NCBI GenBank assembly: GCA_017432005.1
Contig: JAFRKA010000021.1
Location: 124,001 to 188,000, forward strand
Origin: Erysipelotrichaceae bacterium
GTDB lineage: Bacteria; Bacillota_I; Bacilli_A; Erysipelotrichales; Erysipelotrichaceae
Direction of reading: 5' to 3'
Length of the DNA stretch: 64,000 nucleotides
Shown: piece by piece, positions 5,606-53,937 of the stretch
Position numbering within the stretch: position 1 is the first letter of the stretch
How the letters are laid out: every line of letters starts with the position of its first letter
Translations under genes and position numbers: made by a program
The notes under the pieces: model-generated
Databases searched by the model: none
What the model saw: only the letters and a program-made list of their open reading frames with translations
Told to the model about the DNA's origin: nothing

Positions 5606-5813
5606 ATTAATCCCCCTGAAAATAAAAAGGCGGCACAAAGGGCGCAGCAGCGCGGTACCACCTTATCTTTTAGCTTTTCTTCTTAACGCGAAGTCCACGT
5701 GGAGTATTGGTCCAACTAAAGAAGTGAATTCGATATTTATTTCATGAGGACCTTTCACCATAACGGTCCATTCTCTGACATGAAAACCATATTTACTGCT
5801 CTTCTTTACGTAC
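5606..5813 (-). promoter_or_regulatory. T-box riboswitch controlling pheS-pheT (Phe specifier UUC)
   Basis: The leader carries the invariant T-box sequence GGTGGTACCGCG (5651-5662), the stem I AGAGAATGG element, and a specifier-loop GAATTCAC holding a Phe codon TTC at 5726-5728. Uncharged tRNA-Phe would pair with the specifier and the T-box bulge and favour the antiterminator. The competing terminator pairs AAGGTGGTAC with GTGCCGCCTT and is followed by TTTTTATTTT. The specifier amino acid matches the downstream genes. Confidence 0.95.
5623..5664 (-). terminator. Regulated terminator of the pheS T-box
   Basis: A ten-pair stem (AAGGTGGTAC / GTGCCGCCTT, two G-U pairs) is capped by GCGC-TGCT-GCGC and followed by a T-run. 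It uses the T-box sequence itself as the 5' arm, so it is mutually exclusive with the antiterminator. Confidence 0.85.
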
Positions 5814-5819
5814 TACAAG

Positions 5820-50678: not shown

Positions 50679-52421
50679 CTAGTCCTTTTTTATCTCGAGT
50701 GACAGGAAATCAAGCTGATCCTGATCGACGGTGTTAGGTGCATCTGACATCAGGCAGTACGCACTGGCCGTCTTCGGGAAAGCTACGACATCCTTGATGT
50801 TGTCAGTCCCTGACAGGATCATGGTCAGTCTCTCCAGACCGATACCGACACCACAATGTGGTGGAGCACCGTAATCGAAAGCTTCAATGAAGAAACCGAA
50901 CTTGTTTCTGATCTGTTCTTCAGTCAGACCTAATGCATCAAAGACTTTTTTCTGCATCATAGAGTCATGGATCCTGACTGATCCGGAAAGCAGTTCATAT
51001 CCGTTGATTACGAGGTCATATGCTCTGGAATAACAGTTGGCCTGATCATTGCTAAGTTTATCGACATCCTCATCTCTTGGAGCCGTGAACGGATGATGAG
51101 CACTTACCCAGCGGTTCTCTTCTTCCGAGAATTCATACATCGGGAATTCCGTGATCCAGGCAAAACGGTAAGCGTTTTTGTCGATCAGTTCCAGTTCTTC
51201 ACCAAGTTTCTTTCTGAGCGCACCCAGAGCCGTCTCAGCGATGTTTTTCCTGTCGGCGACCAGGAATACCACGTCACCGTTTTTCAGGCTGAGGAACTGT
51301 TTTAAAGCCTCTTTCTCTTCAGCCGGTAATGCATTGTTGAGCGATCCGGTGAATTCATCGTTATCGTATTTCAGATAAGCCAGACCTTTGGCTTTATAGA
51401 TCTTGACGAATTCATTCAGTTCATCGAATTTCTTTCTCGAGATCTTTTCAGCAGCGTTATGGAAAACGACAGCCTTGATGATCCCGCCCTCTTTGACACA
51501 GTTACTGAAAACAGCGAAAGCCGATCCTTTGAACAAATCGCTCACTGTCACCATCTCATTGCCGAAACGCAGATCCGGTTTGTCCGAACCATAGCGATCC
51601 ATCGCATCGACATACCTGATCCGCGGGAACTCCAGATCATTGATACCTTTTACTTCCTTGAAGATCGCCTTCATGACCTTTTCAACTTCTGTGAAGATGT
51701 CTTCCTCATCCGCAAAAGACATCTCGATATCGATCTGTGTGAATTCCGGCTGACGGTCAGCTCTGAGATCTTCATCACGGAAACATCTGGCGATCTGGAA
51801 ATAACGGTCCATTCCACCGATCATCAGCAGCTGTTTGTACTGCTGAGGTGATTGCGGCAAAGCATAGAACTTGCCCTTATAAAGACGTGAAGGGACCAGA
51901 TAGTCTCTGGCACCTTCCGGTGTCGACTTGGAAAGGATCGGCGTCTCGACTTCCACAAAATCATCATCGTGAAGCACTTTTCTGACGATGGTCGCGATCT
52001 TGTCCCTGAGGATCAGTTTATCCTTGATCGGATTCCTTCTGATATCCAGATAACGGTATTTGAGTCTGAGCTCTTCCAGAGCATCAGTCTCATCCGCAAT
52101 GATCATCGGTGTCGTCTTGGCACTGGAAAGGATCTTGCAGGAATCGCACAATACTTCGATCTCTCCGGTCTCCAGTTTCGGATTGGCTGTCTGCTTGACA
52201 GCTACTGTTCCTTCAACTTCGATAACATATTCGTTACGGACATCCTTGACCAGTTCCGAATGATTCTCATCGAAAGTTATCTGCGTTATTCCATAGCGGT
52301 CACGCAGGTCGATGAAAACGATGGAACCGAGATTACGTCTCTTGGCCACCCATCCGCAGAGCCGTACATGTTTTCCCTCATCGGTTTTTCTTAATTCACC
52401 ACAGGTATGATCTCTATTCAT
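50679..52421 (-). CDS. aspS: Aspartate--tRNA ligase
   Basis: This 580-residue class II ligase is of bacterial type: N-terminal OB anticodon-binding domain (VRLCGWVAKRRNLGSIVFIDLRDRYG), motif 2 (FRDEDLRADRQPEFTQIDIEMSF), the GAD insert (about 280-420), and motif 3 (GVGIGLERLTMIL). The start overlaps hisS by eight bases, forming a hisS-aspS operon. Confidence 0.97.
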   Translation of the reverse strand: MNRDHTCGELRKTDEGKHVRLCGWVAKRRNLGSIVFIDLRDRYGITQITFDENHSELVKDVRNEYVIEVEGTVAVKQTANPKLETGEIEVLCDSCKILSSAKTTPMIIADETDALEELRLKYRYLDIRRNPIKDKLILRDKIATIVRKVLHDDDFVEVETPILSKSTPEGARDYLVPSRLYKGKFYALPQSPQQYKQLLMIGGMDRYFQIARCFRDEDLRADRQPEFTQIDIEMSFADEEDIFTEVEKVMKAIFKEVKGINDLEFPRIRYVDAMDRYGSDKPDLRFGNEMVTVSDLFKGSAFAVFSNCVKEGGIIKAVVFHNAAEKISRKKFDELNEFVKIYKAKGLAYLKYDNDEFTGSLNNALPAEEKEALKQFLSLKNGDVVFLVADRKNIAETALGALRKKLGEELELIDKNAYRFAWITEFPMYEFSEEENRWVSAHHPFTAPRDEDVDKLSNDQANCYSRAYDLVINGYELLSGSVRIHDSMMQKKVFDALGLTEEQIRNKFGFFIEAFDYGAPPHCGVGIGLERLTMILSGTDNIKDVVAFPKTASAYCLMSDAPNTVDQDQLDFLSLEIKKD

Positions 52422-53682
52422 AATAATCCTCCATCAGCTGATCCAATCTATCAGCCAGTTCTTCTTTTTTGACTGTTTCCTGAGCTTTGGTCAGGGTATC
52501 TTTCAGGGTCACGGTATTATCTTTTACTTCATCTTCACCGATGATGATCACGAAACGGGCTTTCTTACGGTCACTTGACTTAAATTGTGCCTTTAGCGAA
52601 CGGCCGTAGTAATCCATCTCCGTCATGAAAGAATTGCTGCGCAGCTGTTCGGCGACATTCAAGGCATAATCCGGATCCTTGTTCAGATTGATCACATAAC
52701 AGTCGATGCCTTTTTCATAATCAAAGATATCTTCAGCTTCCGCCAGGATCAAAAGTCTTTCCACACCGATCGCAAAACCGATACCGCTGATATCCGGTCC
52801 GCCCATCTCTTTGACGAGATTATCATAGCGTCCGCCGCCGAAGATCGTCGCCTGCGAACCTGAAGCTTCATTGGTGCTGACGACTTCAAAGACCGTATCC
52901 GTATAATAATCAAGCCCTCTGACGAGTCTGTCATCGACCTCATAAGGTATCTCCATGAGATCGAGATAATGTCTTACTTTGGCGAAATATTCCGCACTTT
53001 CATCCGTGAGCTTCATCTTTGGAGCGTTTCTCACAAAATCTTTATCGCGGTCGATCTTACAGTCAAGGATCCTCAACGGATTCTTGTCCAGACGGTTCTG
53101 ACAGTCAGTACACAGTTCATCTTTATATTCAGCGAAATACTGTTTAAGTTCTTCTTTGTATCTTAACCTTGACTCATTGTCACCGAGTGAGTTCAGCAAT
53201 ACTTTTATGGAAGTCAGACCGAGTATACGGATATAAAAATAACCGAAAGCGATGACTTCCGCATCGATGAGCGGATCCTTGTCGCCGATACATTCAATGC
53301 CCATCTGGGTAAACTGACGCTGACGGCCCTTCTGCGGTCTTTCATGACGGAACATCTCTTCGATATATCCCAGCTTGACCGGCATATCTTCACTGCCGTA
53401 CATCTTGTTTTCCACGAAGGATCTGATCACGCCGGCCGTACCTTCCGGTCTCAGGGTCAGTGAATCTTTGCCGTTAGGCGAGAATGTGTACATCTCTTTG
53501 GTGACCATGTCCGATGTATCGTTCTCCTTCTGGAAGACACCCGTATATTCAAAGACCGGCGTCCTGATCTCACTGTAACCGTAGAGATCGAGATAATGCC
53601 TGAACAGCTGTGCCACCATATTGAATCTGATCATCTGATCCGGAAGCAGATCATATGTTCCCTTTACTGTCTGATATGGCAT
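52414..53682 (-). CDS. hisS: Histidine--tRNA ligase
   Basis: This 422-residue class II ligase has motif 1/2 segments (YGYSEIRTPVFEYTGVF; LGYIEEMFRHERPQKGRQRQFTQMGIE), the histidine-site LVRGLDYYTDTVFE, motif 3 (GIGFAIGVERLLIL) and the C-terminal anticodon-binding domain. An AAAGGAGGT site precedes the ATG. It is under T-box control. Confidence 0.97.
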   Translation of the reverse strand: MPYQTVKGTYDLLPDQMIRFNMVAQLFRHYLDLYGYSEIRTPVFEYTGVFQKENDTSDMVTKEMYTFSPNGKDSLTLRPEGTAGVIRSFVENKMYGSEDMPVKLGYIEEMFRHERPQKGRQRQFTQMGIECIGDKDPLIDAEVIAFGYFYIRILGLTSIKVLLNSLGDNESRLRYKEELKQYFAEYKDELCTDCQNRLDKNPLRILDCKIDRDKDFVRNAPKMKLTDESAEYFAKVRHYLDLMEIPYEVDDRLVRGLDYYTDTVFEVVSTNEASGSQATIFGGGRYDNLVKEMGGPDISGIGFAIGVERLLILAEAEDIFDYEKGIDCYVINLNKDPDYALNVAEQLRSNSFMTEMDYYGRSLKAQFKSSDRKKARFVIIIGEDEVKDNTVTLKDTLTKAQETVKKEELADRLDQLMEDYYE

Positions 53683-53902
53683 ATTTACCTCCTTTTCAAT
53701 AAAATAAAACGTCCTTGTCTAAGGACGTTATTAACGCGGTACCACCTTAGTTCATATCAATGATATGCCCTTTAAGACTTTAACGCAGTCCTGCGACCTG
53801 CTTTCACAGGTATCAAGGAAGTGTCCCTCGCATCTCCTCATGAAGTCTTTCACCGTACACTTCTCGCTGGGAATCGTCAATACGATTGGTTTCCTTATCG
53901 AT
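53683..53902 (-). promoter_or_regulatory. T-box riboswitch of hisS-aspS with overlapping His/Asp specifier
   Basis: The leader has the invariant GGTGGTACCGCG (53735-53746), stem I elements (GCGAGAAG, GGTGAAAGAC) and a specifier-side GGGACACTTCC. At 53821-53825 the five bases GACAC contain both GAC (Asp) and CAC (His). The downstream operon encodes both ligases. The position of the specifier within stem I is my reading and needs an alignment. Confidence 0.9.
53701..53730 (-). terminator. Regulated terminator of the hisS T-box
   Basis: Stem ACGTCCTT / AAGGACGT with a four-base loop and tail TTTATTTTATT on the minus strand. Confidence 0.85.
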
Positions 53903-53908
53903 ATCTGA

Positions 53909-53937
53909 ATTCTATCATTATTTGATAGCTCTTTCAA
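53909..53937 (-). promoter_or_regulatory. Promoter of the hisS-aspS T-box transcript
   Basis: TTGAAA (53932-53937), a 17-base spacer, and TAGAAT (53909-53914). The -35 lies in the last codons of relA. Confidence 0.7.

Follow-up and report, generated by a model that had tools for sequence, protein, structure and literature searches.

On the minus strand of the window, the whole 64,000-nucleotide stretch of Erysipelotrichaceae DNA that was analysed, the overlapping genes for histidine-tRNA ligase (hisS) and aspartate-tRNA ligase (aspS) are preceded by a promoter-like site, a T-box leader and a terminator. The features, in 5' to 3' order on that strand, are:

53909 to 53937, minus strand: sigma-70-like promoter, TTGAAA-17-TAGAAT with TG ahead of the second hexamer (consensus scan)
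53718 to 53907, minus strand: T-box leader (RF00230), covariance-model match to the full model (1 to 219), 79.9 bits, E 7.3e-18
53891 to 53896, minus strand: AAGGAA, 5' strand of the helix below the specifier loop, pairing with UUCCUU
53823 to 53825, minus strand: specifier GAC (Asp), predicted partner of the tRNA-Asp anticodon GUC
53821 to 53822, minus strand: A (the purine after the specifier) and C (the helix-adjoining base), which vary among relatives
53815 to 53820, minus strand: UUCCUU, 3' strand of the helix below the specifier loop, pairing with AAGGAA
53741 to 53744, minus strand: UGGU of the antiterminator bulge (N = U), predicted wobble partner of G73 of tRNA-Asp (sequence and Rfam alignment)
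53708 to 53729, minus strand: intrinsic terminator hairpin AACGTCC..GGACGTT with a T-rich tail (sequence)
52414 to 53682, minus strand: hisS, 422 aa (open reading frame, named from its sequence and annotated homologues)
50679 to 52421, minus strand: aspS, 580 aa, its start overlapping the end of hisS (open reading frame, name recognised from its sequence)

The minus strand reads GACAC from 53825 to 53821, so that the Asp codon GAC (53825 to 53823) and the His codon CAC (53823 to 53821) share the C at 53823. The initial annotation had placed these five bases in the specifier region of a T-box before hisS and aspS; its coordinates were exact, and the RF00230 match confirmed the leader. The hallmarks of a T-box, UGGU and a competing terminator, both lie upstream of the hisS start at 53682. 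At the RF00230 gathering score of 93 bits Rfam gave no T-box match across the window; the leader appeared at a lower threshold, nonetheless matching the model over its full length. The promoter scan gave two sites in the region against a mean of 0.8 in shuffled sequences. Matches to hisS were found in 141 of 145 family genomes, each of the 90 family loci read had an aspS homologue 3' of hisS, and in Listeria an annotated aspS follows hisS. The specifier GAC therefore matches a downstream ligase gene, aspS.

This genome has 14 T-box leaders, that of hisS-aspS among them. A second one in the window precedes pheS (5635 to 5817, minus strand), has TTCAC in its specifier region and scores 65.4 bits, below Rfam gathering. 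At locus L002 (1501 to 1733) a T-box precedes a gene for a substrate-binding protein that by eye resembles TrpX; its specifier region reads GGTATTCATTACTGAG, with no obvious TGG.

Both the GACAC observation and the hypothesis of dual Asp and His sensing by hisS-aspS T-boxes are already known, and the initial annotation was right that overlapping specifiers had been proposed earlier. The relevant parts of PMC5313534 call GACAC characteristic of these T-boxes and credit Gutierrez-Preciado 2009 with suggesting a mainly aspartyl-tRNA interaction; the passage of PMC4342826 that cites the same study has the element suggested to adopt two structures, sensing both tRNAs. As described in those passages, the earlier T-boxes have the operon, five bases and leader architecture of the window, from which nothing essential differs, except that the window's genus has partly lost CAC.

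Conservation of the specifier region

The family sample comprised 90 hisS loci, the 30 best matches and 60 picked for genus coverage, out of the 141 matching genomes. A T-box motif lay ahead of hisS in 75 of them. The other 15 (L023, L026, L027, L028, L030, L037, L038, L039, L046, L049, L053, L077, L082, L088 and L098) stayed outside the alignment; at least L030 and L037 show no motif because the available stretch ends early. Four of the 15, L023, L026, L027 and L028, belong to one genus (g18) in which hisS lies close behind the upstream gene, and there the T-box seems to have been lost.

The five aligned bases in the 75 leaders were GACAC (61), GACGC (6), GACAT (3), GACAA (2), GACGT (1), GACCC (1) and GACAG (1). 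As 61 of the 75 related leaders have GACAC at the same aligned position, its presence in the window is no chance match. GAC was kept in 75 of 75 leaders, whereas CAC was absent from 14. The leaders were aligned by sequence (MAFFT), which may favour lining up GAC; no gaps fell between GAC and the GGAG-like bases after it. The HisS protein tree of these 75 loci required at least 10 changes of the CAC state, seven of them forced by well-supported branches. Within the window's own genus (six genomes) GACAC occurred in three, and the remaining three had GACGT, GACAA and GACAT. Selection on both overlapping codons, as in a two-codon T-box, would have held CAC as well as GAC; here the former was lost repeatedly and the latter never.

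Beyond the family, a phylum-level hisS search returned the same class only, and named loci were added separately. Among 122 further hisS loci, partly from genomes sampled before, 40 fitted the T-box pattern, one of which (L248) looks false. Examples read by eye were Oceanobacillus (GACGT and GACAT), Listeria (GACAC) and an Oscillospiraceae MAG (GACGC), and three species of Paenibacillus had GACTT, which contains no His codon. Bacillaceae had the motif in 29 of 30 loci and GAC in all 29, as GACAT in 26 (L391 scored by eye) and GACAC in three. GACAT retains CAT, a His codon by wobble; at the level of sequence the Bacillaceae set taken alone leaves His reading possible, and the Paenibacillus and family data exclude it.

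The Staphylococcaceae sample consisted of 48 loci, 25 of the genus (L344 to L368, with L351 and L360 read by eye) and 23 further ones of the family (L399 to L421). Where other Bacilli have GAC, all 48 had AAC, an Asn codon (AACAC 32, AACAA 14, AACAG 1, AACGC 1), and GAC stood at the specifier position in none of them.

CAC in other leaders and the helix below the specifier loop

Retention of CAC for the sake of His would make it more frequent here than beside specifiers unrelated to His. In our reading of ileS leaders, where the T-box motif was present in 28 of 30 loci, the specifier region was ATCAC in 27 and ATCCC in one. All five motif-bearing pheS loci had TTCAC, a thin control, as the searched stretch lacked a T-box motif at 25 of 30 loci. 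CAC was thus not commoner in hisS-aspS leaders than in these; the nominal Fisher p of 0.035 lay in the opposite direction, and the rows are related. Read by eye, the ileS (ATCAC), pheS (TTCAC) and alaS (GCCAC) leaders of the window's own genome likewise contain CAC. The part of PMC7583486 concerned with this region reports that a conserved purine after the T-box specifier stacks on it. CAC looks like a by-product of how a T-box is built, the last base of an NNC specifier being followed by the conserved purine, A, and by a base with which the next helix usually begins; in the window, A and C at 53822 to 53821 complete CAC with the last C of GAC. The overlap of Asp and His codons noted in the initial annotation is real, and shared with most relatives, but its CAC part is not special, because Ile and Phe leaders have it equally. 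The pitfall is a general one: wherever an NNC specifier precedes the usual A and C, a CAC results, and unless conservation data back it, an overlapping His codon in a T-box carries little meaning.

Of the 61 GACAC leaders, 49 had the base after A paired with G in the best helix identified; this is the only figure used from the automatic helix finder, which gave doubtful helices for L018, L021, L022 and others. Matching changes occurred in the helix of other leaders, for example CGGA with TCCG in L057. The helix of the window, like that of its two nearest relatives, does not include the second base after GAC, so that CAC is sterically freer here than elsewhere. Five of the six AAGGAA/UUCCUU pairs recur in the minimum-energy fold predicted for stem I of the window, in which the G of GAC is paired with a C and ACAC is open. 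This fold, too, speaks for more freedom in the window, but L016 and L017 lack the C in question. In L015 to L022, which comprise the window's genus and loci near it, this helix seems to sit one base away from its place in other family leaders, so that the second base after GAC is able to vary in several of these loci.

Choice of tRNA

We infer tRNA binding, antitermination and the choice of tRNA from the sequence, the leader anatomy and the comparative pattern. The leader is very probably an Asp-specific transcriptional T-box with specifier GAC that controls both hisS and aspS. In stem I, GAC would pair with the anticodon GUC of uncharged tRNA-Asp, and in the antiterminator UGGU would pair with GCCA at the 3' end of that tRNA; the terminator would then fail to form, so that hisS and aspS would be co-transcribed. 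CAC would be no second specifier, consisting only of the last base of GAC, the stacking purine and the helix-edge base.

The acceptor end is consistent with this. A tRNA scan of the window found none, and both tRNAs were taken from a whole-genome scan, in which tRNA-Asp ends G73-CCA and tRNA-His C73-CCA. N of UGGN was U in 59 and C in 16 of the 75 family leaders, and C in all 48 Staphylococcaceae leaders. U or C can pair with G73 (U by wobble), and neither with C73. N = U or C fits tRNA-Asp; as an argument against His it is weak, because the TBDB authors, in the part of PMC7778990 on this rule, leave His T-boxes out of it and because one His-type leader has N = A. That leader, ahead of hisS in the histamine gene cluster of Tetragenococcus pHDC (L327), resembles the window's in having CAC; unlike it, CAC is followed by A, there is no GAC, and no aspS is annotated downstream in the stretch fetched. 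It was one distinct sequence across nine plasmid records, and a search for further His-type leaders on plasmids returned this sequence only. By eye, no clear T-box was apparent in the L. reuteri hisS leaders L329 and L333, and a scan of L329 gave no Rfam match.

The initial annotation had proposed that one leader might respond to either tRNA-Asp or tRNA-His by a shift of register between GAC and CAC. In its favour, neither codon is disrupted, the operon encodes both ligases, the predicted fold leaves the CAC bases unpaired, and the idea stands in print for hisS-aspS leaders (PMC4342826, in its citation of Gutierrez-Preciado 2009). There is also a precedent in C. acetobutylicum, where a two-codon T-box (Saad et al. 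2013, as related in part of PMC4052509) likewise has two overlapping codons in one specifier loop and is reported to bind both tRNAs; the window's leader, known from sequence, differs in that its second codon is not conserved. We nevertheless consider this proposal unlikely and did not uphold it: GAC is invariant while CAC decays repeatedly across the HisS tree, Ile and Phe leaders carry CAC equally, the last base of CAC is usually paired in the helix, the base after CAC is U rather than the usual purine, and UGGU cannot pair with C73 of the organism's own tRNA-His. A narrower version, a lineage-specific switch with normal tRNA-Asp binding and a weak affinity for tRNA-His through the CAC register, which would let histidine starvation elicit some response, appears slightly more doubtful still; weak binding of tRNA-His is conceivable here because the specifier loop is predicted to be freer than in most relatives.

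That the leader is degenerate and exerts little regulation in this organism is improbable. Its score falls under the Rfam cut-off, but low scores are usual here: seven other T-boxes of the genome are also under it, and the genes behind six of these were identified by eye as encoding ligases. The leader also retains an intact terminator, T-box sequence and promoter-like site. Least probable of all is a His-specific T-box, with CAC as the sole working specifier and GAC accidental. Although hisS is the first gene and PMC7927825, in the part that treats it, names the S. aureus hisS-aspS leader a histidine T-box, the invariant triplet of the family is GAC, no His codon occurs in Paenibacillus (GACTT) or in several members of the family, and the Tetragenococcus leader shows that a His-type leader can have CAC followed by A without GAC.

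The lack of GAC in Staphylococcaceae leaders is a point against the Asp-specific reading. Their AAC suggests that the T-box tracks AspRS, not HisRS, and it is possible that these leaders switched from sensing tRNA-Asp to sensing tRNA-Asn, matching the S. aureus AspRS, which the relevant part of PMC4206432 reports as relaxed. A reading of the AACAC leaders as GAA-CAC-A, and so as His, is also possible. Our search found no paper on an Asp to Asn specifier shift in Staphylococcaceae; it did not extend to the main T-box surveys and so says little about novelty.

Dual Asp and His sensing thus stood in print as a suggestion, and the comparative test favours Asp only. From the comparison we predict that the hisS-aspS T-box would respond to Asp only, and the shift from GAC to AAC, if confirmed, would mean that the switch follows whichever tRNA AspRS serves.
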